A DNA stretch of 64,000 nucleotides from Alishewanella aestuarii B11 (lineage in GTDB: Bacteria > Pseudomonadota > Gammaproteobacteria > Enterobacterales > Alteromonadaceae). The translations under genes were made by a program, and so were the position numbers. Shown piece after piece: positions 8,367 through 29,159 of this stretch; position 1 is the stretch's first letter; every line of letters starts with the position of its first letter. The notes below the pieces were generated by a model that was not told the DNA's origin, searched no databases, and worked only from the letters and a program-made list of their open reading frames with translations. The stretch is from positions 62,001 through 126,000 of the forward strand of contig NZ_ALAB01000001.1 in NCBI RefSeq assembly GCF_000280055.1. Reading direction: 5' to 3'.

Positions 8367-9761
<1,395 letters not shown>

Positions 9762-10200: not shown

Positions 10201-10213
10201 GTCTTGCGAGTTT

Positions 10214-10240
10214 AAAAAACCACCTGCGGGTGGTTTTTTT
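10214..10240 (+). terminator. Rho-independent terminator of the atp operon
   Basis: An A-rich start and CCACC pair with GGTGG and a T7 tract around a TGC loop, giving stem arms of 11 bases. It lies directly after atpC. The A/T symmetry means it could also stop transcription from the other side, but no minus-strand gene faces it. Confidence 0.9.
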
Positions 10241-10276
10241 ATATCAAAAAATTCTTTGTAACGGCCCTGTTACAAC

Positions 10277-10305
10277 TTGTACCAAGCAGTAAACCTCCTT
10301 ATAGT
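10277..10305 (+). promoter_or_regulatory. Candidate sigma-70 promoter for the S9 peptidase gene
   Basis: TTGTAC (10277-10282), a 17-base spacer and TATAGT (10300-10305) lie 45 bases before the start codon. Just upstream is a small inverted repeat, GTAAC-N6-GTTAC, which could be an operator. Confidence 0.55.
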
Positions 10306-10349
10306 AAAACGGCTACGCATTCGATAATAACAACACAGGAAAACTCACC

Positions 10350-12293: not shown

Positions 12294-12315
12294 CCAAGGA
12301 TCGCTGCTATGCAAA

Positions 12316-12339
12316 GGGAGCCGGCAGGCTCCCTTTTTT
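12316..12339 (+). terminator. Rho-independent terminator after the S9 peptidase gene
   Basis: GGGAGCC and GGCTCCC form a 7-base stem around GGCA, followed by T6. Confidence 0.9.
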
Positions 12340-12351
12340 CTAAGGGTTGGC

Positions 12352-12379
12352 TTACATCGCAGCCTATCCTTGTTAAAAT
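12352..12379 (+). promoter_or_regulatory. Candidate promoter of glmU
   Basis: TTACAT (12352-12357) and TAAAAT (12374-12379) are 16 bases apart and 31 bases before the glmU start. The match is moderate. Confidence 0.4.
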
Positions 12380-12409
12380 ACCGGCATCTTACACAACAGG
12401 ATCGTTATT

Positions 12410-13774: not shown

Positions 13775-13787
13775 TCCTTTCAACATC

Positions 13788-13816
13788 GAATGTCAGGTGC
13801 ATCGCACTTGGCATTC
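13788..13816 (+). terminator. Stem-loop after glmU, possible weak terminator
   Basis: GAATGTCAGGTGC (13788-13800) pairs with GCACTTGGCATTC (13804-13816) with two G-U pairs around ATC. No T tract follows, so it may be a stability stem or a Rho-assisted end rather than an intrinsic terminator. Downstream the composition turns clearly AT-rich. Confidence 0.45.
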
Positions 13817-13934
13817 ACCGTTTCAAAATGAAATGTTTCATAAAACGATCATCTCTTTTACCTTCTTTCCTTTAAAGTTATAGCTCCCTGTATTATCTGA
13901 CAGGTTTTAATTTCTATCTCTTCGGTTAATCTTT

Positions 13935-13957
13935 AATTGCATCTTATGGCTGCAATT
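13935..13957. promoter_or_regulatory. Inverted repeat in the leader of the first peptide precursor
   Basis: AATTGCA (13935-13941) and TGCAATT (13951-13957) are perfect 7-base arms with a 9-base spacer, about 30 bases before the precursor start. The spacing suits a dimeric regulator such as the CadC-like or LuxR-type protein of this locus, but that link is a guess. Confidence 0.35.
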
Positions 13958-13985
13958 CTAAATTAACTTACATTTGAGGTGATAT

Positions 13986-14174
13986 ATGAGAGAAGATAAA
14001 AAAATATCTTTAGATGAATATGGTGACATTAAAATTAATGACGAAGTTCTGAATGAGATTGCTGGCGGTGTCAACCCTGAAGATTTAGATGATGATGAGG
14101 CTAGCAATAGGGGATGTGTCGAAGTAAATAAAGGGTGTGTCATTATAAAAAAAGAAGCTTCAGAAGTTCAATAG
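13986..14174 (+). CDS. Double-glycine leader peptide, likely RiPP precursor with two Cys repeats
   Basis: This is a 62-residue peptide with a strong ribosome site (GAGGTGAT) seven bases before the ATG. The leader ends in LNEIAGG (Gly27-Gly28), the type cut by C39 peptidases. The predicted core begins VNPEDL, is very acidic, then contains two heptads, NRGCVEV and NKGCVII, placing Cys44 and Cys51 in equal surroundings. A radical SAM enzyme gene follows after 84 bases. Together these suggest Cys-directed modification (for example thioether links), leader removal and export. This is inferred from pattern; I do not recognise the peptide family. Confidence 0.8.
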   Translation: MREDKKISLDEYGDIKINDEVLNEIAGGVNPEDLDDDEASNRGCVEVNKGCVIIKKEASEVQ

Positions 14175-14201
14175 CTCACTTTGTATATTGTGGACTGAAT
14201 T

Positions 14202-14234
14202 TTATCAGGCCTATATTTTTGTTTGGCCTGATAA
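14202..14234 (+). promoter_or_regulatory. Stem-loop between precursor and radical SAM gene (possible attenuator)
   Basis: TTATCAGGCC (14202-14211) and GGCCTGATAA (14225-14234) form a perfect 10-base stem with a 13-base loop, followed only by CTTTTG. A partial terminator or processing stem here would make more precursor than maturase message, as is common in RiPP operons. Confidence 0.6.
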
Positions 14235-14258
14235 CTTTTGTTGTTGCGGAGGTTTTGT

Positions 14259-15284
14259 GTGGAATTGATCAGTGGCTTTGATAGGAAAAAACTAGCTTCT
14301 TCATTAAGAAATGATAGATTTCATTTGATATTGTTTCCAACAGAAGAGTGTAATTTCCGATGTGTGTATTGTTATGAAGACTTTGAAATTGGTAACATGC
14401 CTCAGTGGTTAGTTGATGCTGTTAAAATTTTATTGTCCAGTAAGGTTAAAAATCTCAAAAGTCTAAACTTGTCTTGGTTTGGTGGTGAGCCTCTGGTTGC
14501 TAAGAAAATATTATTTGATATAGCAGAATATGCTTATGATTTATGTGAGAAGTATAGTTGTAAATTGCAGGGAGATTTGACTACTAACGGCTCTTTGTTG
14601 GATATAAAAACCTTAACAAGGTTAGTGGCACTTCGACAAAATAAATTCCAAATTTCTATTGATGGTGATGAAGAAGCGCATAATAAGACACGCATTACAA
14701 AGAACCAGCGAGGAAGCTTTGAAAAAATATGGCAGCGATTAATTGACGCATCAAAAACTGAACTCGATTTTATTATTACGCTGCGAGTTCATGTAACAGA
14801 TCTGAATCAAGATGGAGTTGAACGTTTTCTTAAGTTGTATGATAAACATCTTGCCGCAGATACAAGGTTTTCATTGTTTTTTAAAGCGATCGAGAACCTT
14901 GGCGGAAATCAGGATAGGGTTCAAAAACTTATTGCTAAAAAAAGCTCGAAAAATTTTGTTGCCGAATTAAATGCTCGTTATTATGGTAGTGATAGTGAGC
15001 AGTCAAACTATATTTGCTACGCATCCAAGCCTAACTCCCTTGCGATACGAGCTGATGGGAATCTTAATAAATGCACTGTTGCATTGAAAGATGACATCAA
15101 TCAGATAGGACGTATCAATGAAGATGGTACTTTAACGATTCAACATCAAAAAATAGGTAGCTGGATAAGTGGCTTTGACACACTGGATAAATGGCGCTTA
15201 GGTTGCCCATTAAGTTATTTCAATGCGCATCCTGAAAAAAAGAACGTGACAGTCGGGGATATCAATGTCATTCAGGTGGCGTAG
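14259..15284 (+). CDS. Radical SAM peptide maturase with C-terminal SPASM/Twitch-like cysteines
   Basis: This 341-residue protein has the radical SAM cluster motif at Cys31, Cys35 and Cys38 (CNFRCVYC) and the SAM-binding WFGGEPL. C-terminal cysteines occur in YICYASKPN, GNLNKCTVAL and RLGCPLSY and could hold an auxiliary cluster. Such enzymes modify ribosomal peptides by radical chemistry at Cys or carbon centres. I choose the GTG at 14259, six bases after CGGAGG; upstream in-frame TTG codons overlap that site. The gene is visibly AT-rich, unlike its neighbours, suggesting transfer. Its end overlaps the next gene by 20 bases. The substrate is probably the adjacent double-glycine peptide. Confidence 0.88.
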   Translation: MELISGFDRKKLASSLRNDRFHLILFPTEECNFRCVYCYEDFEIGNMPQWLVDAVKILLSSKVKNLKSLNLSWFGGEPLVAKKILFDIAEYAYDLCEKYSCKLQGDLTTNGSLLDIKTLTRLVALRQNKFQISIDGDEEAHNKTRITKNQRGSFEKIWQRLIDASKTELDFIITLRVHVTDLNQDGVERFLKLYDKHLAADTRFSLFFKAIENLGGNQDRVQKLIAKKSSKNFVAELNARYYGSDSEQSNYICYASKPNSLAIRADGNLNKCTVALKDDINQIGRINEDGTLTIQHQKIGSWISGFDTLDKWRLGCPLSYFNAHPEKKNVTVGDINVIQVA

Positions 15285-17673
15285 CTGGTTGTGCTTTGCC
15301 TGCCTGCAAACTTTTTTTGCTTTTAGCCTGGCTAGAGCAGAGGTAGCATCCTATCAAACTGATAGCTTGGCTCAGTTTGATTATCACCGATTGATGACGG
15401 ATGTTGGCCCAAGCTGGATGCGGTTATCGCCGGATCAGCAATGGGTAATGATGGCATCGGGTGCTGCATACCCATCCATTTACAGCGAAAGCAACGAAGG
15501 GCGGATCGAGCTGCTGGGTCGTGAGTTTTACGTTGATCGCCCCTTAGAGTCCGGCAGTTTTGTAACAGACAAGGTAAAACTGATCCATATCAGCACCGGG
15601 CAAAGCAAAGAGCTGAGGATACCTGAGCGGAATATCCGCGATGCGCGTTGGTCGCCAGACTCCAAAAATGTTGCTTTTGTTGGCGTTGCTGCGAATGCTT
15701 TGGATATCTGGCACTTTCAACTGTCTCAACAACAGCCTGAGCTCTGGTCGGATATAGCCGTATCCGGTCAATTAGAGGCACCATCAATTGTTTGGTTGCC
15801 TGATAGTCAAAACGTCATTCTGCGGCACAGCAGAATGCAACCTGTTGATACCTTAACGCCAGCAGCTACCCTGCAAATTGCGGATACTCAGTCGGTTCAG
15901 ACGCGAGTGTATCGTAATACCCTTGATACCGATTTTAACCGGCAAAAGTTTTCTGCTTTACTGCGACAGCAAGCTGTTTTGCTTAGCAAAAACGGCGAAG
16001 TACGATCCTTGACAGCAGAGCTGTTGCTTGAGTCGATCAGTATTTCACCGGACGGTCGCTATTTACTGGTGCAACATATTTCCGATGAAGTGCAACCAGG
16101 GATCCGTTTTAATCGTCTGGCGCGGGAGTATCAAGTTGTTGACATCGCAACGGGAAACATTAGTGCAGTGTTACCCAAGCTGCAGACAGATCTGGTGCGC
16201 GCCAGGGAGCCGGATGCCGCCGCCGAGGGGGCGCGCCTAGTGCAGTGGCGGCCTGATCAACCAGCTACTTTAATTTGGGCCGAAGGCATAGAGCTGCGCG
16301 GGCATGCTGTTGATGCAAGCTATCGAGACGCTGTGTTTACCTTAGCGGCACCCTTTACTGCATCGCCAGAAGAGTTGTTTAAAACCAGCTGGCGCTTGCA
16401 TCAATTGCATCTTACAGAGGGTGGACGCCTACTTTACAGTGATTTTCATTCTGGCCTCAAGCAGCTTAGATATTGGGATCTGCTATTAGGTGCCGCAGAC
16501 AAACCTCAACGCTTATTGCTGCACTATGATTATACCAATAGTGCTGAATTTCCCGGTGAACTTGTCAGCCAGTTGTTACCAGATGGAAGAACGCAGTTGG
16601 TAACTAATAAGGCGCAAGCAATTTATTTTCAGGCCGATGGCCAAAACCGTTGGGGAGATGGAGCTTATCTGGTGAGGCTGGATGCTGAGTCAATGGAGCA
16701 GCAGATTGTTTTTGCAAGCAGTGACCAACAGCAACGCAGAGCACCGCTTTACCTTAGAATGCAAGATGATAAAGAATGGCTTCTACTAACTAAGGAGTCT
16801 GCACAGCGGGCACCTTCACTCTGGTTAAGCCATGGCAGTGCAGCAGAGCAACTGATTTATGACTGGCACTCTGATGCGCTTATAGCAACGCCTGAACCTC
16901 TGTTATTGGAGTTTCAGCGTGCTGACGGTGTGCAGTTATACAGCCAGCTATTTTTGCCAGAAAAGGCGGTCGATCAATTATTACCCGCGGTAATTTGGCT
17001 CTACCCCCGTGAATACCACACCCATCAGCAACAGCCAAAACCATCCCGGCAATCACTTTTTCAGCCTGTAGATCCCATGGGGCCCTTAGTTGCACTGTTG
17101 GATGGTTATGCTGTTGTTGATGCCAGTCAGGCTCCGATCATTCGGCAAGATGGGCAAGAGCCGAATGATACCTTTAGGCAGCAACAGCAACTAAATATAG
17201 ATGCCTTGATAGCAGCTTTAGAGAGTACGGGCCGTATTGATAGGAACCGTTTGGTGTTGATGGGGCACTCCTATGGTGCCTTCAGCGCAGTCAGTCTGCT
17301 AACTGAGCGTAGCGATTTTCGTTGCGCCATAGCCCGCAGTGGTGCTTATAATCGCTCATTAACTCCCCTAGGATTTCAGGGTGAAAAAAGAACCTTGTGG
17401 CAGGCTCCCGATTTGTACCAGCAGCTGTCACCCTTTTTCCATGCAGATAAAGTAACAACCCCTGTATTGCTGATCCACGGTTCGGCCGACGAAAACCCAG
17501 GTACTGCGGCATTGCAATCTGAGATGATGTTTCAAGCCCTGCAAGCACAGCAAGTGCAAGCGAAGCTATTATTGCTTAATAAAGAGCGGCACGCTTACCG
17601 CTATCGTGAAACCATTGAACAGATGCTTATTGCTCAATCGGCTTGGTTAAGACAATGCGCCCAGCTTGATTGA
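15265..17673 (+). CDS. Exported S9-type peptidase/hydrolase in the peptide locus
   Basis: This 802-residue protein has a signal peptide (MSFRWRSWLCFACLQTFFAFSLARA), a long N-terminal region with beta-propeller-like WSPDSKNVAFVG and ISPDGRYLLVQ repeats, and a C-terminal alpha/beta-hydrolase. The predicted triad is Ser669 in GHSYGAF, Asp742 in HGSADENPG and His776 in KERHAY. The start overlaps the radical SAM gene by 20 bases, so the two are probably translationally coupled. That ties it to the peptide: it may finish processing, degrade the product for self-protection, or process uptake. None of these can be chosen from sequence. Confidence 0.85.
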   Translation: MSFRWRSWLCFACLQTFFAFSLARAEVASYQTDSLAQFDYHRLMTDVGPSWMRLSPDQQWVMMASGAAYPSIYSESNEGRIELLGREFYVDRPLESGSFVTDKVKLIHISTGQSKELRIPERNIRDARWSPDSKNVAFVGVAANALDIWHFQLSQQQPELWSDIAVSGQLEAPSIVWLPDSQNVILRHSRMQPVDTLTPAATLQIADTQSVQTRVYRNTLDTDFNRQKFSALLRQQAVLLSKNGEVRSLTAELLLESISISPDGRYLLVQHISDEVQPGIRFNRLAREYQVVDIATGNISAVLPKLQTDLVRAREPDAAAEGARLVQWRPDQPATLIWAEGIELRGHAVDASYRDAVFTLAAPFTASPEELFKTSWRLHQLHLTEGGRLLYSDFHSGLKQLRYWDLLLGAADKPQRLLLHYDYTNSAEFPGELVSQLLPDGRTQLVTNKAQAIYFQADGQNRWGDGAYLVRLDAESMEQQIVFASSDQQQRRAPLYLRMQDDKEWLLLTKESAQRAPSLWLSHGSAAEQLIYDWHSDALIATPEPLLLEFQRADGVQLYSQLFLPEKAVDQLLPAVIWLYPREYHTHQQQPKPSRQSLFQPVDPMGPLVALLDGYAVVDASQAPIIRQDGQEPNDTFRQQQQLNIDALIAALESTGRIDRNRLVLMGHSYGAFSAVSLLTERSDFRCAIARSGAYNRSLTPLGFQGEKRTLWQAPDLYQQLSPFFHADKVTTPVLLIHGSADENPGTAALQSEMMFQALQAQQVQAKLLLLNKERHAYRYRETIEQMLIAQSAWLRQCAQLD

Positions 17674-17735
17674 AAAGCAGGCACTAATATCAAATCCAGA
17701 TAATTCACTTGCCCTGTAAGTTTTAGCAGGTAATA

Positions 17736-19904
17736 ATGCTGTTAAATGTATGTGTTTATTTGGATTTTATGTCTAAGGTTATCCTTGGTGAGTTTATTTT
17801 CGATAGCAGCAGTAATTTGCTGTATTCGGGCGAAACAGAGTTGGAAGCTGAGCCTAAGGTTCTGGAGCTCTTAGCGTTCCTGCTGATTCACCAGGACCGT
17901 TATGTCAGCCTACAAGAATTACACGAGCATGTTTGGGCTGGGCGTGTGGTAAGCGATACGGCAGTCCGGGGTACCATTAAAAAGCTGCGAAACCTGCTTG
18001 GCGATAGCAGTATTGATGAACCTAAATACATCAAATCACTATCAAAGCGCGGTTACAAACTGGTTTGTTATATTGCTGATGTTGTCAGTACGGCACCGAC
18101 GGAATCTGCCACACCTACAGGAGTTGAAGTCGAGCTTGATCTGTTACAAGCGTCAGGTGGTTATGCTGACGTACTTCAACAGTCAGCTAGTATCCCTATC
18201 CGCTCAGGTAGAGTGCCCTCTCTGGCATTTCTGCTTTTGGTTGGTGCGGCTCTCCTGTGGTTTATATTGCAGGGGCAGCAAGATACCCCATTATTTGACG
18301 AGCCGCCGTTATCAAGTCAGCTTATCCCAACCATCGCTGGAGAAAAACGTGGTTTGGCAGTGTCCCCAGATGGCGCCTACTTGGCATTTATTGGTCGGCC
18401 AAATCAGAGTGAGCCGTGGCAAGTTTACCTGATGGATCGCCAAAACCGCGATATTCGCCTTTTATCAATAACTACCCAACAGCCTAGCTTCCTAGTATTT
18501 GAGGATAACCATTCACTGCTGCTTGTTGATCTGGTAGTAGGAAACTCCTCTATCTACCGTTTGCAGTTGGATAATAATATGCAGCTTGTGGGTGAAGACA
18601 TGGTGATAGATTTTCCCCTTATATCCCACTTGGGTTTAGGGAGGGAGAAAGGCGACTGGTTAATTAATGCCACTGATGATATATACAGCACTCTGAAGCT
18701 ATATCGTTGGGATGCTGGCGCTGAACAGCTACAGCTGTTGCGGGCTCGAAGTAGTGTTACCGAGCATATTTATCGGTCAACTTATTCACCCTCAGGTCGC
18801 AGGTTGGCTAGCGCTGTACTTATCAATGGTGTGGAATTTCGGCTGGAGGTGCAGGATCTTCAATCAAAACAGATTTTGTACTCAGAACAAACCACTAACT
18901 CTATTAACCGCTTGGAATGGCAGGATGATGAGTCGCTTATTTTTCTTGATGATACGCAGGGGTTAGTTTTAGTTGAACTGACATCGAATAGGCAGCGGGT
19001 TATCATGGAACATGCTGAGGAAAAAATCGAAGATTTTACACTTGCTGGATCAGGGCAAAAGTTACTCATACTACGAAACCAATCCTTGTCAGAGCCCGTG
19101 TTTTACGAGTTAGCGCTTGAGTCTGAGTTTTCTACGGAGAGGATTGTCAACGTGCCCCATGCTTTGCGGATGCTCCATTATGCCGGTATCAATCAGGGCT
19201 ATTTTGGTGTTATACGACAGCAAGACCAGCGGATGTTGGTTAACTATGCTCCATTAAACAGCAATAAAGAAGTTCTTTTTGTAACAGATAAACATATAGA
19301 GATTTTAGAGCATCATCCCGCACAGAATGCATTGCTGTTGCAAGCAGGGCAGCAACTCATAGTGCTGGATCTGAATATGAGCGGGGTTGATCTAGTATCG
19401 ACTTCACAAAGCTTTCTTGATAGCCATGCCGCTTTTTCGCTGGATGGCTCTCATGTCTATTACGGCCAGTTAATTGCCGGGGAATGGGAGCTGTACCAGT
19501 TTGATCGCGCTAGTCAGCGCAGTCACCTGCTTGTTAAAGGGTATCGCTCAATACGTGAAACGCCAAAGGGATTTATTGCTGCGACCGGCAAGGGAGACTT
19601 GTATCTGCTGGATCAGGAGTTGCGTCAGCTAAAATCCCTTGGTCACAGTATTAACACCGAATTTATCAGCCGCTGGTATGTTAAGCAGCAAAAACTGATT
19701 TGGAGTGATTTCGATTTAGTCTCCACATGGTTAAATCAACTGGATTTGGACAATGGAGAGTTTCAGCAACGCCGTTTTACTTATGAAAAAATGCGGCCTC
19801 GTTTTGCCATCAACCAAAATGGTAGTCATGTGCTGGGTTATAGTTTAAGATCTCGTAATTCTAATCTCTATCACGTTGATTTTCCAAGCCTTTCTAAAAA
19901 GTAA
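17736..19904 (+). CDS. CadC/ToxR-like transmembrane transcriptional regulator with periplasmic propeller domain
   Basis: This is a 722-residue one-component sensor. The N-terminal winged helix of OmpR type (about residues 15-110; EPKVLELLAFLLIHQ, VSDTAVRGTIKKLRNLLGD, YIKSLSKRGYKLV) is followed by a linker, one membrane helix (VPSLAFLLLVGAALLWFIL, about 155-173), and about 540 residues with TolB-like blades (RGLAVSPDGAYLAFIG). The DNA-binding part is cytoplasmic and the propeller periplasmic. It may sense the peptide or its processing. An alternative start is ATG 17769, which trims eleven residues; the first start has AGCAGG upstream. Confidence 0.88.
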   Translation: MLLNVCVYLDFMSKVILGEFIFDSSSNLLYSGETELEAEPKVLELLAFLLIHQDRYVSLQELHEHVWAGRVVSDTAVRGTIKKLRNLLGDSSIDEPKYIKSLSKRGYKLVCYIADVVSTAPTESATPTGVEVELDLLQASGGYADVLQQSASIPIRSGRVPSLAFLLLVGAALLWFILQGQQDTPLFDEPPLSSQLIPTIAGEKRGLAVSPDGAYLAFIGRPNQSEPWQVYLMDRQNRDIRLLSITTQQPSFLVFEDNHSLLLVDLVVGNSSIYRLQLDNNMQLVGEDMVIDFPLISHLGLGREKGDWLINATDDIYSTLKLYRWDAGAEQLQLLRARSSVTEHIYRSTYSPSGRRLASAVLINGVEFRLEVQDLQSKQILYSEQTTNSINRLEWQDDESLIFLDDTQGLVLVELTSNRQRVIMEHAEEKIEDFTLAGSGQKLLILRNQSLSEPVFYELALESEFSTERIVNVPHALRMLHYAGINQGYFGVIRQQDQRMLVNYAPLNSNKEVLFVTDKHIEILEHHPAQNALLLQAGQQLIVLDLNMSGVDLVSTSQSFLDSHAAFSLDGSHVYYGQLIAGEWELYQFDRASQRSHLLVKGYRSIRETPKGFIAATGKGDLYLLDQELRQLKSLGHSINTEFISRWYVKQQKLIWSDFDLVSTWLNQLDLDNGEFQQRRFTYEKMRPRFAINQNGSHVLGYSLRSRNSNLYHVDFPSLSKK

Positions 19905-19993
19905 TAATTTCACCACAGTAAAGCTGGTTTTTCGTTATCCCCTCGGTTCCTTTTCTTATTTATCGTGTGCTCATTACAAAAAGGAGCCTCGCT

Positions 19994-20128
19994 ATGAAAG
20001 AAATGATATTCGCATTTTTATTGATATTGCCTTCAGTATTGTTGGTTGAAAATACTCCAAACGATGATGATAAAGCCGTTTCGCCTCTATCTTGGTGTTG
20101 GATCAATAATACTTGCAAAAACGAATAA
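19994..20128 (+). CDS. 44-residue secreted or membrane peptide with Cys/Trp tail
   Basis: This short gene has an excellent ribosome site (AAGGAG, eight bases before ATG). The product begins MKEMIFAFLLILPSVLLV, a hydrophobic export-like segment, then an acidic NDDDK linker, then a tail containing WCWINNTC, with two Cys five residues apart and two Trp. It ends 15 bases before the LuxR-type regulator, so the two are likely one transcript. It could be a signal peptide, an immunity or a second modified product. I recognise no family. It is easily missed because of its length. Confidence 0.65.
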   Translation: MKEMIFAFLLILPSVLLVENTPNDDDKAVSPLSWCWINNTCKNE

Positions 20129-20143
20129 TACATCGGGGGGCAT

Positions 20144-20773
20144 ATGAGCTTCTTAGAGAAAATTCTGGTTGAATTGGAGCAGATTAAAACTCTGCGGCAG
20201 TTGGAGCGCTATTTAATTCAGTTTAGTGAATTATCCCATATCGACTGGTGCTGTTTAATGGTTCATAGTTGCAACACTGTCTATATGGGGGATGCGCCTG
20301 AAGAGGTAAAACAACAACTTACCCTGGCGGTATTAAAGCAGGTAAATCAGTGTTGTAAACCTTCCTGGTCTGGCGCAGATGAATTCAGTAAAGCGATTTT
20401 TCCGCAGACCAGCCTGCTGGTTCCTATTATGGCAACGCGCCCCGATCATGCCTGCTTAATGCTTGGCTTTGCCAAGCAAAGCATCGAGCCCAAGCTTGCA
20501 CAAAAGCTAGCTTGGTTCTGGCAGGTCATTGCCTCTTATATCTACAACACTTATCGCCGTATTACGGACGATGGCGTTGTAGTTGATTTTCAATTAACCC
20601 CGCGTGAAGTTGAATGTGTCCACTGGGCAGCCCAAGGCAAAACCTCGTGGGAAATCAGCAAGATCCTTGGTATTACCGAACGGACAGTCAACTTCCATCT
20701 AAGCAATAGCATGCAAAAAACGGGTAGCTGCAACCGACAACAGCTTGTTCGTAATTGCATGAATATATTGTGA
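20144..20773 (+). CDS. LuxR-family transcriptional regulator
   Basis: This 209-residue protein has a C-terminal LuxR helix-turn-helix (about residues 148-205: LTPREVECVHWAAQGKTSWEISKILGI, then TERTVNFHLSNSMQKTG). The N-terminal ~140 residues resemble in length an autoinducer-binding domain but are Cys-rich (CC at about 36-37 and 67-68), so the ligand is uncertain. The ribosome site is CGGGGGG. It follows the 44-residue peptide and precedes the second precursor by 111 bases. It probably controls the exporter operon. Confidence 0.88.
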   Translation: MSFLEKILVELEQIKTLRQLERYLIQFSELSHIDWCCLMVHSCNTVYMGDAPEEVKQQLTLAVLKQVNQCCKPSWSGADEFSKAIFPQTSLLVPIMATRPDHACLMLGFAKQSIEPKLAQKLAWFWQVIASYIYNTYRRITDDGVVVDFQLTPREVECVHWAAQGKTSWEISKILGITERTVNFHLSNSMQKTGSCNRQQLVRNCMNIL

Positions 20774-20867
20774 TTTATCCAAAGTTATTTTTTAGCAACA
20801 AAAAAAACATGGCCTGCTGCTGGCGATAACGGATGCTTGTGGGCAGAGTTTATTGCAACTAACAAGG

Positions 20868-20878
20868 TTATATAGAGG
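20868..20878 (+). repeat. TTATATAGAGG leader repeat, copy 1
   Basis: An 11-base direct repeat containing the AGAGG ribosome site, found before the second precursor. Copy 2 is at 21133-21143 before the adaptor gene. It may reflect duplication of a gene start or shared translation control. Confidence 0.5.
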
Positions 20879-20884
20879 TACACA

Positions 20885-21064
20885 ATGAACGATTTATTAA
20901 AACCGGTAACACCGGCACAGCCAGTAATGGCCACTACAACCCTGGAAGGCTTTATTGAAGTTACTGCCTTAGATGAACTGGACAAAATTGTTGGCGGCTT
21001 TCTTAACCCGGACGAGATTTACATTGAGTTGGAAGAGAGTCCTGTAAGTAGCTCAATGTATTAA
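20885..21064 (+). CDS. Second double-glycine leader peptide precursor
   Basis: This is a 59-residue peptide with an AGAGG ribosome site. The leader ends in the classical LDELDKIVGG (Gly37-Gly38), the recognition sequence for C39 exporter peptidases. The 21-residue core starts FLNPDEIYIELEE, is acidic, has two Tyr and no Cys. After the GG it shares the Asn-Pro-acidic-acidic pattern with the 13986 precursor. The C39 ABC exporter is encoded just downstream, so cleavage and export by it are likely. The lack of Cys argues against thioether formation; a signalling peptide is possible. Confidence 0.8.
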   Translation: MNDLLKPVTPAQPVMATTTLEGFIEVTALDELDKIVGGFLNPDEIYIELEESPVSSSMY

Positions 21065-21132
21065 CAACTAGGTGCTGAAACATTTGACAGGTGACAACCA
21101 GAGAAGCATGACTGATGATTGAAAGTACTAGT

Positions 21133-21143
21133 TTATATAGAGG
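21133..21143 (+). repeat. TTATATAGAGG leader repeat, copy 2
   Basis: Identical to 20868-20878 and also serves as ribosome site region, here nine bases before the ATG at 21153. Confidence 0.5.
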
Positions 21144-21152
21144 ATAAGCTTG

Positions 21153-21863
21153 ATGTCTTATCAGAAACTCTTTCGCAAAGAGGCGCTTCGGCACCAGTAT
21201 AAATCACAGGAATTTGGTGAGTCTGTTATCCAGCAGCCATTGCTACTTGATAAAGCCTTGCTGATTATGGTGATTGCCGTGTGTCTGTTGATGAGTTTGG
21301 CGGTTGTTTACCCCTTTGTAAGCACTGAGCGTCTAAGCCTTGAAGCGCATGAATCCAACTACTTTCCTGTTGTGTCGCCAACCCCAGTTGTGGTTGAGCG
21401 GCATTTGCATCCGGATGGAAGCCGTGTTAACCGTGAGCAGGTCATTACTCAGGTCCGGACCTTTGATGGTGTTAGCCGCCGTGAGCAAGTGGATCTGATG
21501 AGTGCCAGTGAAACCGGGGTTTACTTTTCGGTAATCAATGCTGGAACGTCCGCGCAGCCATTTCAGCCCATTGCCAAAATTTTGCGCACGAATGAAGATC
21601 ATCTTTTTTTCTTTACATTAACTGGCGCAAAAGCCAAACAATTGAAGCCGGGGCAATGGGTGAAATTAACATCTGGGCATCACCAGGCCAGTGGCAAGGT
21701 CCACTCAGTCATTGGACCTTTTCAGCAAGGCAGAATCAATATCGGCATTCAGTTGCAGTCTGCCTACGATGTAGGGGTTTTGCATCCGTCAGCGGCCGTT
21801 CGGTTGGAGCTTAGTGTGAAACGGAACAATTTTTTTGCTTTGCTGCGTAAGGAAGGAGCATGA
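21153..21863 (+). CDS. Short HlyD-family adaptor for bacteriocin/peptide export
   Basis: This 236-residue protein starts LFRKEALRHQYKSQEFGE, typical of CvaA-type adaptors, followed by one membrane helix (LLIMVIAVCLLMSLAVVYPFV, about residues 35-55). The C-terminal part looks like the beta-barrel domain (KPGQWVKLTSG). It is little more than half the usual ~400 residues: the lipoyl and long coiled-coil segments appear to be missing. The end overlaps the exporter gene by four bases. I take ATG 21153; a TTG one codon earlier is less likely. Confidence 0.8.
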   Translation: MSYQKLFRKEALRHQYKSQEFGESVIQQPLLLDKALLIMVIAVCLLMSLAVVYPFVSTERLSLEAHESNYFPVVSPTPVVVERHLHPDGSRVNREQVITQVRTFDGVSRREQVDLMSASETGVYFSVINAGTSAQPFQPIAKILRTNEDHLFFFTLTGAKAKQLKPGQWVKLTSGHHQASGKVHSVIGPFQQGRINIGIQLQSAYDVGVLHPSAAVRLELSVKRNNFFALLRKEGA

Positions 21864-23974
21864 ACCTCTCCGACTATATACAGTTTAGAAACCAGCAGCT
21901 ACCGGTTTATTTGCAAAGTGAGGTTGCCGAATGCGGTATCACATGTATTGCGATGGTCGCTTATTATCATGGTTTTAAAACCAATATGCTGGCAATGCGG
22001 CAGAAGTACCCGGCTGGTTTGCATGGTGTGACCGTAAAGCAAATCGTGCAAATTGCCGATGAGCTAGGTTTATCTGCTCGGGTACTGAAGCTGGATTTAG
22101 GCCAACTGGCGAAAGTAAAAAAACCGGCCATTTTACACTGGAACTTCAACCACTTTGTGACTTTGGCCAAGGTTAGTGGTAAGGGCATCACCATTCATGA
22201 TCCGGCGAAAGGACGGCTGACACTGGACTGGAATCAGGTATCCGAAAGCTTTACCGGCATTGTTATTGAGCTGGTTCCTTCCGCCGGCTTTGAGCGTAAA
22301 GATGAACGAGTTCGGGTACCGTTGCGTCACTTTATCGGCAAAGTGGATGGGCTCTGGTCTTCACTAGGGAAAATTTTTGTCATTGCCTTGCTGTTGCAGG
22401 GGCTATTTCTGGTGTCGCCCTATTACATACGGGTGGTGATTGACCAGGGCATAAACTCCGGCCAGGCCAGCTTGCTGTGGTCTGTTTTTATTGGCTTTTC
22501 TTTGGTACTGGTATTGTCGGTTTTAGCGCAAATTATTCGCTCTGCCGCCATTATGTACCTGGATAAAAACCTGAGTTTTCAAATCAAAGCCAACATTCAG
22601 CGCCATTTGTTGCACTTACCGCTTAGCTTTTTTGAAAGCCGCCATGTTGGGGATATTAAGTCACGGTTTGAAGCCTTTAATGAAGTGCAACGTCTGATTA
22701 GTCGTGGCTTTATTACGGCTGTGGTGGATGGTTTGCTCAGTATCACCACCCTACTGATAATGTTCCACTACAACAAGGCTCTGGCACTGGTCTCTGTTGG
22801 CTTTTTAGTGGCCCTATATTTGATACGTTTTTTCCTGACCAGTAAGGAAAACGAACATCTGGAGCAGCAACTTAGTAAGCATGCCCGGGAAAACAGCCAT
22901 TTTATTGAAACCATTCGGGCCATTATGCCGATCAAAAGCTTTGCTAAGGAAAATAGCCGGTTATCCAGTTGGATGAACTTTTATGCCGATACGCTAAATG
23001 CCAGCATTCAACGTGAAAAGATCACCATAGCCAGCGATATAACACAAAATGCGCTTGGACGGGTTGAGTATCTGGTTATCGTGTTAATTGGTGCGCACTT
23101 TATCATTGATGGGGCTCTTAGCCTTGGCATGTTTCTGGCTTACCTGGCTTATCGCCAGCAGTTTGCCGACAGCGCACAGTCTCTGGTAGATAATATTTTC
23201 CGCTTTCGGATTGCAGGCACTTATTTGCGCCGGATGTCAGATATCGTATTGCAGCAACCGGAGCAGGATCAAGCCAACATTGCGTTGCAACCCTCTCAAG
23301 TCGCAGGCGCTTTGGAAGTCAAAAATTTGCACTTTCGTTACAGTGACAGTACGCCCTGGTTGTATCAGGGGCTGAGCTTTAAAGTTGATGCGGGAGAGTC
23401 GGTCGCTATTGTTGGCCGCTCCGGGCTCGGAAAATCGACGCTACTAAAAATTATGACGGGTTTAATACAGCCGCAGCAAGGGGACTTGTTGCTGGATGGC
23501 ATGCCATTAAAGTCTTTGGGCTTCAGGCAATTTCGCAGTTACAGCGCTACAGTGATGCAAAATGATCAATTATTAAATGGTTCTTTGCTGGAAAATATTA
23601 CCTTTTTTGAGCCATCGCCAATTCTTGAATTGGTCAAAGAGGCCCTACAAGGGGCTGCCATTTGGGACGAAGTCCAGGCAATGCCGATGGGATTACACAC
23701 TCAGGTTGGCGATCTTGGCAGTGCTTTATCCGGTGGGCAAAAACAACGTATTTTGTTGGCAAGAGCATTTTACGCTCAACCTAAGATTCTGTTTCTGGAC
23801 GAAGCAACCAGTCACCTGGATAGCTTAAGCGAACAACGCGTTAATGAGTATCTGAAACAAAAGAAGATGACTCGGATCAGCGTCGCCCATCGCAAGGAAA
23901 CTATAGAGGCGGCAGATAGAGTGATTGACCTGACTGAGTTAATCAGCAATACCCCTAATGCACAAAGCGCATAA
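21860..23974 (+). CDS. Peptidase-containing ABC transporter (C39 peptidase, CvaB/LctT-like)
   Basis: This 704-residue protein has three domains. The C39 peptidase (about 12-135) carries Gln19, catalytic Cys25 in AECGITC, His98 in NHFVTL and Asp114 in HDPAKG. A six-helix ABC domain (about 165-450) follows, then an ATPase with Walker A GRSGLGKST, signature LSGGQKQR and ILFLDEAT. It removes double-glycine leaders and exports the core. The catalytic residues are all present, so it should be active on the 20885 peptide and perhaps the 13986 peptide. Confidence 0.95.
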   Translation: MNLSDYIQFRNQQLPVYLQSEVAECGITCIAMVAYYHGFKTNMLAMRQKYPAGLHGVTVKQIVQIADELGLSARVLKLDLGQLAKVKKPAILHWNFNHFVTLAKVSGKGITIHDPAKGRLTLDWNQVSESFTGIVIELVPSAGFERKDERVRVPLRHFIGKVDGLWSSLGKIFVIALLLQGLFLVSPYYIRVVIDQGINSGQASLLWSVFIGFSLVLVLSVLAQIIRSAAIMYLDKNLSFQIKANIQRHLLHLPLSFFESRHVGDIKSRFEAFNEVQRLISRGFITAVVDGLLSITTLLIMFHYNKALALVSVGFLVALYLIRFFLTSKENEHLEQQLSKHARENSHFIETIRAIMPIKSFAKENSRLSSWMNFYADTLNASIQREKITIASDITQNALGRVEYLVIVLIGAHFIIDGALSLGMFLAYLAYRQQFADSAQSLVDNIFRFRIAGTYLRRMSDIVLQQPEQDQANIALQPSQVAGALEVKNLHFRYSDSTPWLYQGLSFKVDAGESVAIVGRSGLGKSTLLKIMTGLIQPQQGDLLLDGMPLKSLGFRQFRSYSATVMQNDQLLNGSLLENITFFEPSPILELVKEALQGAAIWDEVQAMPMGLHTQVGDLGSALSGGQKQRILLARAFYAQPKILFLDEATSHLDSLSEQRVNEYLKQKKMTRISVAHRKETIEAADRVIDLTELISNTPNAQSA

Positions 23975-23988
23975 AGGCAGGATAAAGA

Positions 23989-25218
23989 ATGAAGAAAAAC
24001 ATAAGTAAACTGGTCTACAGTGGGATTGGCCTGCTATCGGTTTTGCTGCTAATTAGCGGCTGGAGCATCGGTTTTGCCGGTGGGCTGCACTATCTCAGTG
24101 CATCCAGTGTCAGCGTGGCGACGGTGCAAAGTGGCGACTTTACCCAGCGGGTGACCGGCTATGGTAGCTTGCAATCGCAAAATCAGCGTTTGTTGACTGC
24201 CAGCAGCATGGCGACGGTGGATGAAATCAAGCTGCGCCCGGGTGCCGTGGTCGAGCCGGATACGGTGATCCTGACGTTAAAAAACCCTGCCCTGGAAATT
24301 GCCGCCCAACAGGCGCTGGCAAATTTGCACAACAAGCGCAGCAACAGCCGACGGCTGGCGCTGGAGCAGCAGCGCGAAATTCTGGAGCAAAGCTCGCGTC
24401 TGGCTGAGCTGAAATCCGACGCGGAGCTGGCCGCTTTGCAAGTTGAAGCCGAAGCGCCGCTGGCCGCAGCTGGCATTATCTCTGGCATGGATGCCAGACG
24501 TAGCCGGGCCCGGGCCGAGCAATTGGCCGAGCGTTATCAGTTGGAGCAGCAAAAGCTCACCACCCTGCAGGAAGTGCATCAGCAGTATTTATTGATCCAG
24601 CAGGAAGATATTCAGCAGGCAGAGGCCGAGCTGGCCAATGCGACCTATCAGCTACAGCAACTGGTGGTGCGGGCTGGTTTGGCCGGTGTGCTGCAGCGCT
24701 TGCCGGTCAGTTTGGGCCAGAGCGTCAATGTTGGCGACCAACTGGCGCTGGTCGGCAGCTTGTCGCCTTTGGTGGCGGAGGTGAAAGTGCCGCAAATGCA
24801 GGTAAGGTTGTTGCAGGCAGGTGCCAGCGCTGAAGTCGATACCCGCCATGGCATTATTACCGGCCAGGTGGTGCGGATAGATCCTGTAGTAGCCGATGGC
24901 GCTGTGCAGGTGGATATTTTATTGCCCGAGCAATTATCCGCTGATATCCGGCCGATGCAGATGGTGGATGCGCGCATTCATGGCCAAAGCCGTGGTCAGG
25001 TCAGCTTTGTCGATCGTCCGGTTGGGGTGGCGGAAGATGCGCAGGTCGAGCTGTTTAAGCTGGATGCTAAACAAGTGGCCAGCAGGGTGCCGGTGCAATT
25101 TGGTAAGGCTTCTGGCCAGCAAATAGAAGTGGTGTCGGGCTTAAACCCGGGCGACCGTATTATTATCAGCGATCTGCAGCTTGATAGCAGTGTGCGGCAA
25201 CTGAAACTGACTCAGTAA
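23989..25218 (+). CDS. Periplasmic adaptor (HlyD/MacA-like membrane-fusion protein)
   Basis: This 409-residue protein has an N-terminal membrane anchor (about 10-32), a lipoyl-type half-motif (TVDEIKLRPGAVVEPDTVILTLKNP), a Gln/Glu-rich alpha-hairpin (about 105-205) and beta-barrel domains. It pairs with the following ATPase and permease as a MacAB-like pump. It is separate from and longer than the short adaptor before the C39 exporter. The composition is GC-richer than the first half of the locus. Confidence 0.9.
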   Translation: MKKNISKLVYSGIGLLSVLLLISGWSIGFAGGLHYLSASSVSVATVQSGDFTQRVTGYGSLQSQNQRLLTASSMATVDEIKLRPGAVVEPDTVILTLKNPALEIAAQQALANLHNKRSNSRRLALEQQREILEQSSRLAELKSDAELAALQVEAEAPLAAAGIISGMDARRSRARAEQLAERYQLEQQKLTTLQEVHQQYLLIQQEDIQQAEAELANATYQLQQLVVRAGLAGVLQRLPVSLGQSVNVGDQLALVGSLSPLVAEVKVPQMQVRLLQAGASAEVDTRHGIITGQVVRIDPVVADGAVQVDILLPEQLSADIRPMQMVDARIHGQSRGQVSFVDRPVGVAEDAQVELFKLDAKQVASRVPVQFGKASGQQIEVVSGLNPGDRIIISDLQLDSSVRQLKLTQ

Positions 25219-25228
25219 GGATTGAACA

Positions 25229-25942
25229 ATGAAAACCGACGTACTTAATGTAAAACAACTTAAAAAAATCTTTCAATCCGGCCAGCAACAGCAAGCGGTG
25301 TTAAATGGCGTCAGTTTTAGCGTGCAGGAAGGTGACTATGTGGCCATTTGCGGCCCCTCTGGCTGCGGTAAATCTACCTTACTTAATATTCTGGGCCTGC
25401 TCGATACCGCCGATGGCGGTGAATACTGCATCGATGGACTCTTGGTATCGGATATGAACGCCGAGCAGCGCGCGCAAATGCGCAGCCGCCGTATTGGCTT
25501 TGTGTTTCAGGCGTTTAACCTGATTGATGAATACACCGTACTGGATAATGTTGCTTTGCCACTAAAATACCGCGGCGATAGTGTTAAACAGCGCCAGGCA
25601 CGGGCACTGCAGTGTCTGGAAAAAGTTGGCTTGGCCGATAAAGCCGCGCTTTTCCCCAACCAGTTATCCGGTGGTCAGCAGCAGCGGGTGTCGATTGCCC
25701 GGGCATTGGCGGCCGACTCCGGCATTATGCTGGTGGATGAGCCTACCGGTAACCTAGACTCCAAAAATGGCGATGCGGTGATGGCCTTACTGGCCGATTT
25801 ACACCAGCAGGGTACTACCATCGTACTGGTCACCCACGACCCGCGCTACGCCACTATGGCGCACCGGCAGATCCATTTGCTGGATGGTCAGGTGGTCGCC
25901 GACGAGGCGCTGCAGACTGATGCAGAGGAGCAAGTGGCATGA
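25229..25942 (+). CDS. ABC transporter ATPase, MacB/LolD type
   Basis: This 237-residue ATPase has Walker A GPSGCGKST, the LolD/MacB-type Q-loop segment RIGFVFQAFNLIDEYTVLDNVALPL, signature LSGGQQQRVSIARALA and Walker B MLVDEPTGNLDS. It starts 10 bases after the adaptor and overlaps the permease by four bases. In this family ATP drives a mechanical permease that acts on periplasmic substrates. Confidence 0.95.
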   Translation: MKTDVLNVKQLKKIFQSGQQQQAVLNGVSFSVQEGDYVAICGPSGCGKSTLLNILGLLDTADGGEYCIDGLLVSDMNAEQRAQMRSRRIGFVFQAFNLIDEYTVLDNVALPLKYRGDSVKQRQARALQCLEKVGLADKAALFPNQLSGGQQQRVSIARALAADSGIMLVDEPTGNLDSKNGDAVMALLADLHQQGTTIVLVTHDPRYATMAHRQIHLLDGQVVADEALQTDAEEQVA

Positions 25943-28359
25943 ATGGGCGCCTAATCTGGTCGATGCTGTGGCGCAACTTTCTGCAAGCCAGGCAATACTA
26001 CCTGACTGTCGTGGTCAGCCTGGTGTTTACCCTGACCTTGCTGTTTAGTGTGCTGAGTTTGGTCAATATTACCTACTTCGCGCCCCTGCCTTATCAGAAT
26101 GACCGCGAGCTTTACTATGTTGGCGGTGAGCTAAATTACCAGGGGGCGTTGGAGCATTCCAGCAATGTACAGACCTTGTTTGACTTGAAAGAAAAAAGTC
26201 AGTTGCTGCAGCAGATGGCGGTGTATTTTAGCTTTCAAACTGAGTACAAGCTGCTGGATCAGCCAACACGGCCAAGAGTTCCGGTACTGTTTGGCGCGCA
26301 CGATATTTTCGAGGTGATGGGGGTAGAGCCTTTATTAGGCCGGCTTTTTAACGAGCAAGAACAAATGGGCAATAAGCAGCCCTCGGTGGTGCTCAGTCAG
26401 GCCGTCTGGCAACAGCATTATGGCGCTCGGCCGGATATTGTCGGCCAAAGCATTCAGCTGAATCAGCGCCAGTTTACTGTGATAGGGGTGGTGAAGCAGG
26501 CGCTGGAGTTGCCGGGCTTTACCGATGCGCATGAGGCCATTTGGCTACCGCTGGATATGGATGAGCGAATCGATATACGCGGCTTTGGGGGTTACTCTAG
26601 TGGTTTTGCGGCGCTGGGCCGGTTAAAGCCGGGGGTAAGCCAGCAGCAGGCTAATGCCGAGGCATATCAGCTGTTAAAGCAAGCGTCAATCGAGCGCGAT
26701 CCGGATTTTCAGCATATGTTCGATTACTACGGCAAAGTGGTGCCACTGCGACAGCAAATTCAGGGTGACTCAGGCCGTTTGGTACTGATGCTGTTGGCCG
26801 GTGTCTCACTGCTGACGTTAATTGCCCTGGTCAATTTATCCAGCATGCAGCTGGCACGGGCGGTTAAACGCTTGCAGCCGCTGGCGGTCTGTTACGCCTT
26901 CGGTGCCAGCAAAAAACAAATGTTTCTGCAGGTATTTCGCCACAATGCCGCTTTGTTGGCTGGCTCGGGGTTGCTGGCACTATTGTTAACCTGGCTGGGT
27001 TTTGGCGTGATAGCACAAGTTGCTGCCGACCAGCTGCCAAGGATCAGCGTACTGCGCATCGACGGCCTGATGCTGCTGCTCACTACTCTGGTGCTGTTGG
27101 TCATAGCCTTGCTCTTTAGCTGGATTGAGCTTAGCGGCGTCCGTGAACAGCAATTAATGGCCAGTTTGCAAAGCAGTGGCAAAGGAGCTGGTAAGCAGCT
27201 TAAACAAGGGGTGGCGCATACTTTAATCGGGGTGCAGCTAATGTTGTCCTTACTGGTGTTGCTGGCGACTGCCCATGTTTTTGTTGCCGCCTGGACGGAA
27301 GCCAACCGACCTACCGGTATCGACAGCACCGATCTTTGGGCTCTGACAGTCAACTACAGCGACTTGGACAACCGCGAGCAACGGCAAAACCAACATCGGG
27401 CTGTGCTGCAAAGTCTGACTGCTTTGCCTCAGGTGCAGCAAGTTACTGCGGTATCTGAGCCACGCGCACCCCGGGTGCGTAATCAGGATGCGGTAAGCAA
27501 TTCGCAAGGGGAAGTCATCACCTCGGCCCGGCAAATTGCCGTACTGCCAGGTTACTTCCAATTTTACGGTCTTGAGCTTAGTGGTCAGGATTTTACTGCT
27601 GAGCATGTTGGGCTGGAGCACTACCCACTGATGATCAATCAACGGCTGGCTGATCGTATTGCCCGTTTATCGGGTAAAACTGCTGTGGGCCAAACCCTGA
27701 CGCATAATGATGACGGCATCCAACGGTCGATTATTGGCGTGGTGGCCAATACCAACTTTCCCGGCGATCAGGGTTATGAGGTGGATGAAGTCTATTACCC
27801 GGCAGAAAACTCCGGCTGGCGTGATTACAGCTATCTGCTAAAGCTAATGCCTGGTGCAACCCTTACCGATACTGCTTTGCTTGAGCTGCTACGCCAGCAG
27901 GATCCACGGCTTGATTTAATTGAACTCACAACGGTAGCAGCCGCTTTTGATCGCTTTTCGCTATCGCACCGGCTGGCGGCGGCCTTGGCGGCCACCCTGG
28001 CACTGATGAGTTTACTGACGGTGCTGGCCGGTATTGCCGGTATTGTCAGCTATCTGGTGCAGGCGCGGCGGTATCAGCTGGGAGTAGAAATGGCGATGGG
28101 AGCCAGCTTAAAGCAATTGCTAAAAGACAACCTGGTTAAGCTGGCGCAGCCAATAGCGGCGGCGCTGCTGCTGGGCTTTTCCTGCTTCTTTTTCTTAGCC
28201 GGTATCAGCCGCACCCAACCCGAGCTGATGTTTCAAGCCAACTGGACGCTGGTAGCGGCCTTGCTGGCGCTATTGGCATTAGCCGCCCTGCTCTGCAGCT
28301 TGGTGCCGCTGCGCCGGGTGTTGCTGACTGATCCGGTGAAGGCGCTGCGCAATGAGTGA
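25939..28359 (+). CDS. FtsX/MacB-type ABC permease
   Basis: This 806-residue protein has an N-terminal membrane helix (about 20-44), a periplasmic MacB_PCD-like domain, three helices near 280-400, a second periplasmic domain and three C-terminal helices. This doubled layout is like the separate-permease relatives of MacB. It ends in PLRRVLLTDPVKALRNE, the usual family end. With the previous two genes it makes a tripartite pump that may expel the mature peptide or protect the producer. Confidence 0.9.
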   Translation: MNGRLIWSMLWRNFLQARQYYLTVVVSLVFTLTLLFSVLSLVNITYFAPLPYQNDRELYYVGGELNYQGALEHSSNVQTLFDLKEKSQLLQQMAVYFSFQTEYKLLDQPTRPRVPVLFGAHDIFEVMGVEPLLGRLFNEQEQMGNKQPSVVLSQAVWQQHYGARPDIVGQSIQLNQRQFTVIGVVKQALELPGFTDAHEAIWLPLDMDERIDIRGFGGYSSGFAALGRLKPGVSQQQANAEAYQLLKQASIERDPDFQHMFDYYGKVVPLRQQIQGDSGRLVLMLLAGVSLLTLIALVNLSSMQLARAVKRLQPLAVCYAFGASKKQMFLQVFRHNAALLAGSGLLALLLTWLGFGVIAQVAADQLPRISVLRIDGLMLLLTTLVLLVIALLFSWIELSGVREQQLMASLQSSGKGAGKQLKQGVAHTLIGVQLMLSLLVLLATAHVFVAAWTEANRPTGIDSTDLWALTVNYSDLDNREQRQNQHRAVLQSLTALPQVQQVTAVSEPRAPRVRNQDAVSNSQGEVITSARQIAVLPGYFQFYGLELSGQDFTAEHVGLEHYPLMINQRLADRIARLSGKTAVGQTLTHNDDGIQRSIIGVVANTNFPGDQGYEVDEVYYPAENSGWRDYSYLLKLMPGATLTDTALLELLRQQDPRLDLIELTTVAAAFDRFSLSHRLAAALAATLALMSLLTVLAGIAGIVSYLVQARRYQLGVEMAMGASLKQLLKDNLVKLAQPIAAALLLGFSCFFFLAGISRTQPELMFQANWTLVAALLALLALAALLCSLVPLRRVLLTDPVKALRNE

Positions 28360-28861
28360 TTTAAAGATGAGTGAACCTATAAAAAGAACCGTCAATTGGG
28401 AAAAATATACCGCACTAAGCTCGATGCTGGTGGCAGTATTAGCCTTGGCCATTTCCATCTGGCAAAGTTATAACATACAGCAGCATAATAAATTGTCGCT
28501 TAGACCTTATTTGGAAGCAGAATTTAACACTACTTTAGAGGACGGCTGGGAACTCTATATTAATAATCAGGGGTTGGGGCCGGCTCAGGTGACGGATGTA
28601 AAATACATAGTTGATGGCACTATATATCGGGATAGGGATGCGTTTCTAATTGCACTGGGTGAGGATCCAGATTGTTATGTTATGGGAAATGTAGGTCGCT
28701 TTTATAAAGTGTCAGATAGGCAGATAGTTTTTAGTACTTTGAATAACACTTGTCGCAAAACTGAAGCTGAGTTGATGGCATTGCTAAGCCGGATGCAAAT
28801 GATCCTCGATTATCAATCTTTATACGGCGAGACATATCAATTGGTAATTGGACAACACTGA
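28352..28861 (+). CDS. Small membrane-anchored protein of unknown function, end of the peptide-export operon
   Basis: This 169-residue protein overlaps the permease gene by eight bases. One helix (LSSMLVAVLALAISIWQSY, about residues 23-41) is followed by a domain with ELYINNQGLGPAQVTDVKYIVDG. Similar helix-plus-sandwich proteins are common as uncharacterised cargo. Its place as last gene of a peptide locus suggests an immunity role, but no motif supports this. An alternative start is ATG 28367. Confidence 0.7.
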   Translation: MSDLKMSEPIKRTVNWEKYTALSSMLVAVLALAISIWQSYNIQQHNKLSLRPYLEAEFNTTLEDGWELYINNQGLGPAQVTDVKYIVDGTIYRDRDAFLIALGEDPDCYVMGNVGRFYKVSDRQIVFSTLNNTCRKTEAELMALLSRMQMILDYQSLYGETYQLVIGQH

Positions 28862-28916
28862 GTAATAAGCGGAGACAATGGTTTGTATCTAAAACCGCTG
28901 TATTCGCCGTTTTTAC

Positions 28917-29159
28917 TCACTGGCGCCGAGCTTGCTTGGCCGCCTGCCATTCAGCTTGGGTGATTGGGCTGGTGGTAAGTTGTGATAAATCGTGCTGCTG
29001 ATACTGCGCTTTACGGGCCGCCACCTGCTGCATAATAGCCGCCAGCTCAGCCTCTGAACGACGGTTCCAGTCGACAATTTCACTGATATGCCGATAGCAG
29101 CCAATGCAGATTTTGGCACTATCTAACTTACAGCAGGCGACGCAGGGCGATTCGATCAT
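28917..29159 (-). CDS. DUF1289 family small Cys-rich protein
   Basis: This protein of about 80 residues starts MIESPCVACCKLD and continues with ICIGCYRHISEIVDW, the full DUF1289 pattern of four or five cysteines that may bind Fe-S or zinc. Its function is unknown. I choose the ATG at 29159; an upstream in-frame TTG (29180) would add seven residues but relatives start just before SPC. It is convergent with the export operon. Confidence 0.85.
   Translation of the reverse strand: MIESPCVACCKLDSAKICIGCYRHISEIVDWNRRSEAELAAIMQQVAARKAQYQQHDLSQLTTSPITQAEWQAAKQARRQ

Follow-up and report, generated by a model that had tools for sequence, protein, structure and literature searches.

In agr, ComQXPA, and other Gram-positive pherotype systems, a secreted small peptide is encoded beside its receptor, and the two co-vary inside a conserved locus. 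Allotype-bearing peptide pheromones are, to our knowledge, hardly known in Gram-negative bacteria. The streptococcal NxxcA/NxxcB system belongs to the ribosomally synthesized and post-translationally modified peptides (RiPPs) of the radical S-adenosylmethionine (SAM) type (RaS-RiPPs), as a ranthipeptide, and in NxxcA a β-thioether joins Cys23 to the β carbon of Asn20 (PMC8326336; PMC13361665). Here, we describe a locus with features of both kinds of system in a 64,000-nucleotide stretch of Alishewanella aestuarii B11 (contig NZ_ALAB01000001.1, positions 62,001 to 126,000; hereafter the window, numbered from its first letter). The locus is a 15-kb island of 13 genes on the + strand, flanked by glmU and the gene for a sodium:dicarboxylate symporter. 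Our best explanation, held as a whole with moderate confidence, is that this single island was horizontally acquired and provides for the synthesis, export, trimming, and control of a modified peptide. The gene set, its conservation, a precursor motif, the island borders, and co-divergence are observed; the chemistry, the direction of export, and the identity of the ligand are inferred. The unexpected element of the island is its regulatory cassette, which consists of a CadC-like sensor, a mini-peptide, and a LuxR-type regulator.

Comparison by blastn with the congeneric genome G004 (locus L067), the closest examined, showed that DNA homology ended at position 13761 and restarted at 28930. G004 lacked the island and had a glmU–symporter gap of 375 bp, and the island (13762–28929) is a clean insertion of one block. 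A close homologue of the radical SAM protein was found in none of 30 congeners, and neither tRNA genes nor Rfam matches turned up when the window was scanned for them. A first-pass annotation, made from the sequence without database searches, had listed genes for a precursor, radical SAM enzyme, S9 hydrolase, CadC-like protein, Cys/Trp peptide, LuxR regulator, second precursor, C39 exporter, MacAB-like pump, and small anchored protein; all were present on the + strand at the positions it gave, and the list had overlooked one gene, encoding a short membrane-fusion adaptor of the HlyD type (21153–21863, +).

Using the radical SAM protein as a query over 84,980 genomes, we found loci in Pseudoalteromonas, Shewanella, and Colwellia that join two precursor genes (preB and preA) to genes for the radical SAM enzyme, short adaptor, C39 exporter, MacA-like adaptor, ABC ATPase, ADOP-like permease, and S9 hydrolase, with cadC and luxR adjoining. 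A second search, covering the 108 genomes of the genus holding the Pseudoalteromonas systems, brought the tally to 11 distinct full systems, that of the window included. The preA homologues lay directly 5' of the radical SAM gene in all relatives, and among 395 genomes from the order preB was found in two only, both of which also carried the radical SAM system. Because these genes recur together in other genera, their grouping is not due to chance, and because the radical SAM/S9 half and the C39/MacAB half share one locus in relatives, they belong to one system rather than two. The first-pass annotation had proposed looking for the same gene order in related genera, and would have read separate locations of the two halves (13986–17673 and 20885–28861) as two systems. 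The gene set recurred in a single locus in all three genera; the order differed in the window, where the S9, cadC, and luxR genes lie between the radical SAM gene and preB. A sister version in Ferrimonas, Thalassomonas, and further Pseudoalteromonas comprised a preA-like precursor, radical SAM enzyme, full-length HlyD protein, C39 exporter, and an S41 protease replacing S9, and an exported protease is therefore a constant part. Everything tested was consistent with the earlier view that these genes putatively make up a complete system for a RiPP or a peptide signal, with a periplasmic sensing step. No description of the gene set or of the regulatory cassette was found in full-text searches of a literature that took in few subscription journals.

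The CadC-like one-component sensor (17736–19904, +) shares with Escherichia coli CadC a Trans_reg_C DNA-binding domain, a single transmembrane helix, and a periplasmic sensor domain, but its periplasmic domain is of the β-propeller type and its gene is grouped with those for the mini-peptide and LuxR in RiPP loci. Since the structural model of CadC was weak (predicted local distance difference test [pLDDT] 71; predicted template modeling [pTM] score 0.49; many propeller matches with TM scores ≤0.35), we limit the claim to a "propeller-type" ectodomain. The LuxR-type regulator (20144–20773, +) has an N-terminal domain without an assigned family; the lack of a Pfam match there in seven of seven members led us to reject an autoinducer-binding domain. 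In every full system, the gap from cadC to luxR contained a small open reading frame (ORF) whose peptide has a hydrophobic signal at its N-terminus and, toward its C-terminus, two cysteines spaced by five or six residues (CWINNTC, C-x5-C, in the window; CILAPDLC, CPLTSNC, and CKILDTC in others). In the window, this candidate signal gene (19994–20128, +) encodes a Sec-type signal and probably starts at ATG 19994, behind a good ribosome site. When eight cadC–luxR gaps were shuffled by dinucleotide, a comparable ORF arose in at most 6 of 1000 shuffles per gap; a strict automatic ORF rule recovered five of the eight real mini-peptides. A search for a common operator 5' of preA, cadC, the mini-peptide, and preB showed no shared 14-mer (≤2 mismatches) except around ribosome sites.

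Two close pairs of relatives differed sharply in parts of this cassette. Between the Pseudoalteromonas loci L022 and L023/L132, the mini-peptides were 33% and the CadC ectodomains 69% identical, and LuxR, the CadC DNA-binding domain, preB, the short adaptor, the exporters, and S9 were all 95–100% identical (for L022 and L132: LuxR 97%, DNA-binding domain 96%, C39 100%, and S9 98%). A second variable block took in most of a tetratricopeptide repeat (TPR)-like protein, which was 72% identical overall, together with the preA core (60%) and a portion of the radical SAM protein. The pair L021 and L134 showed the same distribution, with the mini-peptide (74%), ectodomain (81%), preA core (64%), TPR-like protein (74%; its frame is split into two ORFs in L134), and radical SAM protein (77%) set against conserved LuxR (98%), DNA-binding domain (100%), C39 (100%), and S9 (99%). 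In the first pair, synonymous divergence (dS) was about 0.1–0.2 in the exporters and S9 but reached 1.1–2.1 in the blocks of the mini-peptide, the ectodomain, and the TPR-like protein, and the high values in the variable blocks indicate that whole divergent alleles were exchanged. The mini-peptide and ectodomain formed one contiguous variable block, bounded by the conserved luxR and CadC DNA-binding domain, and this contiguity makes it the leading candidate for the CadC ligand is the mini-peptide. The TPR-like protein (360–376 aa; L022:8529–9659 and homologues) is encoded between preB and preA in most Pseudoalteromonas systems, and close pairs carry different alleles of its last three quarters. 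It is possibly an immunity or recognition protein; "TPR-like" is a mere working label, as the 372-aa Pseudoalteromonas protein had no significant Pfam or PDB sequence match.

The systems show two marks of the pherotype kind: the candidate signal gene lies beside the candidate receptor gene in all full systems, with the mini-peptide next to cadC and luxR, and in both close pairs the mini-peptide and the ectodomain are polymorphic within a conserved locus. The divergence of mini-peptide and ectodomain is the pattern of a pheromone–receptor pair, as in signal/receptor allotype loci, and no report of this pattern for a mini-peptide and CadC was found in the same literature with its few subscription journals. 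As in agr and ComQXPA, the mini-peptide adjoins a candidate receptor with which it varies inside a conserved locus; unlike in those systems, a one-component propeller protein of the CadC type is the candidate receptor, the host is Gram-negative, and the peptide has a Sec-type signal and two cysteines.

The cadC/mini-peptide/luxR cassette was also present with other RiPP enzyme classes. Locus L117 (congener G014, contig C23, 219–10147), on the other side of glmU, combines it with a C39 exporter, a lanthipeptide synthetase of class III that has RamC_N, kinase, and LanC-like domains, and a precursor with two WSTMS-x-GC repeats. In G066 (L100:12780–13449 and L101), it accompanies TfuA, ThiF, a nitroreductase, and a pair of YcaO proteins, and the mini-peptide between cadC and luxR is repeated in tandem as three near-identical copies (VCILLPQLC). 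The related locus L118 (G279 contig C27, approximately 7773–14993), which lies beside atpC, has cadC, a short adaptor, luxR, a GG-leader peptide, and a hydroxylase of the cupin_8 type; a mini-peptide was not seen in this locus.

The preA precursor (13986–14174, +) has a leader ending in NEIAGG and a core with two Cys heptads (NRGCVEV-NKGCVII), in which Asn occupies position −3 of both cysteines; NRGC and NKGC are two units of the NxxC-type ranthipeptide motif. Among 28 precursor cores beside homologous radical SAM genes, picked by leader and position, 50 of the 92 cysteines had Asn at −3 (12.1 expected), a count reached in none of 2000 shuffles and approached at no other position, although locus L027 contributes many of these 92 cysteines. 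The preA cores of the seven first full systems alone gave 10 of 13 (1.3 expected), and four precursors fetched later gave 6 of 8 (0.6 expected; none of 20,000 shuffles). Because the motif matches that of NxxcA in both spacing and residue, we predict that the preA product is a ranthipeptide-type RiPP with Asn–Cys β-thioethers. The island also resembles the NxxcA/NxxcB loci in having a single radical SAM gene beside a small precursor and in being putatively peptide-regulated (PMC8326336; PMC13361665), but it is Gram-negative and has CadC/LuxR in place of Rgg/SHP, export of the C39 and MacAB types, and an S9 hydrolase. In L027:9718–12784, from a gammaproteobacterial metagenome-assembled genome, at least six different Cys-rich precursors lie beside one radical SAM gene, and one of them reaches eight cysteines and seven NxxC units.

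The radical SAM maturase (14238–15284, +) probably starts at GTG 14259, which also follows a good ribosome site. The protein scored 45 bits against Radical_SAM (cut-off, 29.5), and its conserved C-terminal cysteines (C260-x13-G-x4-C279 ... C323) were twitch-like rather than of the full SPASM pattern. Its best PDB sequence match was 5wgg, which we take to be CteB, a SCIFF maturase. A profile scan of the window proteins revealed no RiPP recognition element (RRE) in the enzyme. Against curated NCBIfam cut-offs, membership was rejected for PapB (NF047865; 106.9 bits, cut-off 340), rSAM_vs_C_rich (TIGR04463; 128.4 bits, cut-off 525), and, with scores far below the cut-offs, Clo7bot and CefB. The enzyme shares with the PapB, TIGR04463, and CteB maturases a radical SAM core, C-terminal auxiliary-cluster cysteines, and Cys-containing substrates, but it is shorter, has three conserved auxiliary cysteines only, and lacks a detectable RRE.

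Its gene overlaps that of the exported S9-family hydrolase (15265–17673, +), which has an N-terminal hydrophobic signal and an invariant Ser669/Asp742/His776 triad; assignment as a lasso peptide isopeptidase was rejected (NF033523; 48 bits, cut-off 400). The C39 peptidase/ABC exporter (21860–23974, +) contained Peptidase_C39 (105.8 bits), ABC_membrane, and ABC_tran domains, all over cut-off, and its family membership implies leader cleavage after GG; it did not belong to the NHLM/NHLP type (TIGR03796; 468.7 bits, cut-off 853). The short adaptor had no significant Pfam match. Its predicted structure (pLDDT 78.6) comprised one transmembrane helix, a barrel-sandwich, and a β-barrel without hairpin helices, and its best Foldseek match was BesA (E 2.1e-7; VIA-align Z 10.4, root mean square deviation 3.8, 151 aligned), which places it among the hairpin-less, BesA-like periplasmic adaptors. 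The MacAB-like pump genes (23989–28359, +) encode a full-length MacA/HlyD-type adaptor (23989–25218, +), an ABC ATPase (25229–25942, +), and a double MacB_PCD/FtsX permease (25939–28359, +). This permease is MacB-type, with two stretches each of PF12704 (MacB_PCD) and PF02687 (FtsX), and ADOP-like, although membership of ADOP itself was rejected (TIGR03434; 419 bits over the full length, cut-off 622). TolC-family genes are encoded elsewhere in the same genome. The first-pass annotation had noted neither the NxxC motif nor the hairpin-less adaptor, and the occurrence of the cassette with other RiPP classes and the signal/receptor-like polymorphism had likewise escaped it.

MacAB-TolC exports a Sec-delivered peptide from the periplasm (PMC8277102), and we infer a similar second step for the island. 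The radical SAM enzyme would link each preA core Cys to the Asn three residues earlier, forming two four-residue β-thioether rings. Cleavage behind GG by the C39 exporter would remove the leader, and the exporter and hairpin-less adaptor together would pass the core into the periplasm, where the S9 hydrolase would trim it and from where the MacAB-type pump would move the peptide through TolC. The Sec-exported two-Cys mini-peptide would be the specific ligand of the CadC-like periplasmic propeller, and CadC and LuxR would switch the island on. The product of preB (20885–21064, +), which has a preA-like GG leader, may be a second exported peptide. This predicted route resembles export of STII (Sec, then MacAB-TolC) and of pyoverdine by PvdRT-OpmQ in combining a periplasm-matured peptide with a MacAB-type pump (PMC8277102), but its first step would be C39 with a hairpin-less adaptor, and its double ADOP-like permease has a separate ATPase. 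On an Acetobacter plasmid (L085:7536–14978), a homologous radical SAM gene accompanies a precursor with a Sec-type signal and NGNC, a membrane fusion protein, an ABC ATPase, a large permease, and TolC; a two-component system adjoins this locus, which has no annotated C39 gene.

With chances that we place slightly below even, the island contains a Gram-negative peptide-pheromone system in which the mini-peptide is sensed by the CadC propeller ectodomain, divergent allotypes are exchanged, the RiPP product and a partner protein form a second allotype block, and the cassette serves as a portable control unit for chemically different RiPP islands. Several points weigh against these proposals. The co-variation comes from two close pairs alone, neither of which includes the window's own allele; the raised dS reflects allele replacement and could be partly hitchhiking; the preB core lacks Cys in the window; the island has no known product; and the nearest radical SAM cut-offs were missed. 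Moreover, the preA core, TPR-like protein, and radical SAM protein vary in the same pairs, and the ligand of CadC could be the preA product. The ectodomain would then sense the mature preA peptide as an autoinducer, and the mini-peptide would serve in immunity, act as an accessory peptide, or be another cargo for the MacAB-type pump, as MacAB-TolC does export a small disulfide-bonded Sec peptide (PMC8277102). We consider this somewhat unlikely, given the contiguity of mini-peptide and ectodomain between conserved parts and the retention of the mini-peptide with cadC and luxR beside lanthipeptide (L117) and YcaO/TfuA (L100/L101) enzymes.

Export offers another competitor, this one to the proposed two-step route with periplasmic trimming. 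Bacteriocin loci often include self-protection pumps, and the C39 exporter and short adaptor may lead straight through TolC, leaving the MacAB-type pump as producer immunity. BesA lacks the α-hairpin yet is part of a tripartite pump (PMC3807786), and a short adaptor is therefore no proof of export to the periplasm only. This direct route is plausible, although we favor it less than two-step export, since an exported protease is a constant part (S9, replaced by S41 in the sister version) and must find its substrate in the periplasm or outside the cell, and since the Acetobacter locus retains a MacAB-TolC set where the precursor bears a Sec-type signal. As to the chemistry, the nearest solved relative, CteB, and the varied Cys-peptide maturases among the nearest NCBIfam models leave room for another bond, either a sactionine α-thioether or a link from Cys to another residue; it is unlikely, because the family and the held-out precursors are constrained above all to Asn at exactly −3, as in NxxcA. 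That two separate systems became adjacent by chance is extremely improbable: the S9–cadC–luxR segment does break the precursor–exporter run in the window, but all parts lie in one locus in every full system found, and the conserved loci, together with the empty site and single insertion, rule out unrelated neighbors.

The last gene of the island encodes a small membrane-anchored protein (28352–28861, +) without a counterpart in the loci of relatives. The gene glmU is the immediate or near neighbor of the island in the window and of loci L025, L117, L139, and L141, whereas L021–L023 abut deoR–glmS, and L118 and L140 abut atpC; the atp–glmU–glmS region is a recurrent landing place for such islands, with differing exact positions. 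Beside the symporter gene, GntR-regulator and transporter genes (30469–34695) vary among congeners, a further sign of plasticity around glmU–glmS. Elsewhere, the window encodes a large sensor protein that combines a Reg_prop propeller with Y_Y_Y and histidine kinase domains (41847–45218) and type I restriction-modification domains (53903–63775; Methylase_S, 53903–54496; HSDR_N and SWI2_SNF2, 60491–63775).

If our reading is true, the NxxC β-thioether class, characterized in streptococci, reaches Gram-negative bacteria with a full export and control apparatus. The island would also point to a Gram-negative peptide signal with its own membrane receptor, and the cassette could be used as a marker for RiPP loci overlooked by enzyme-based mining.

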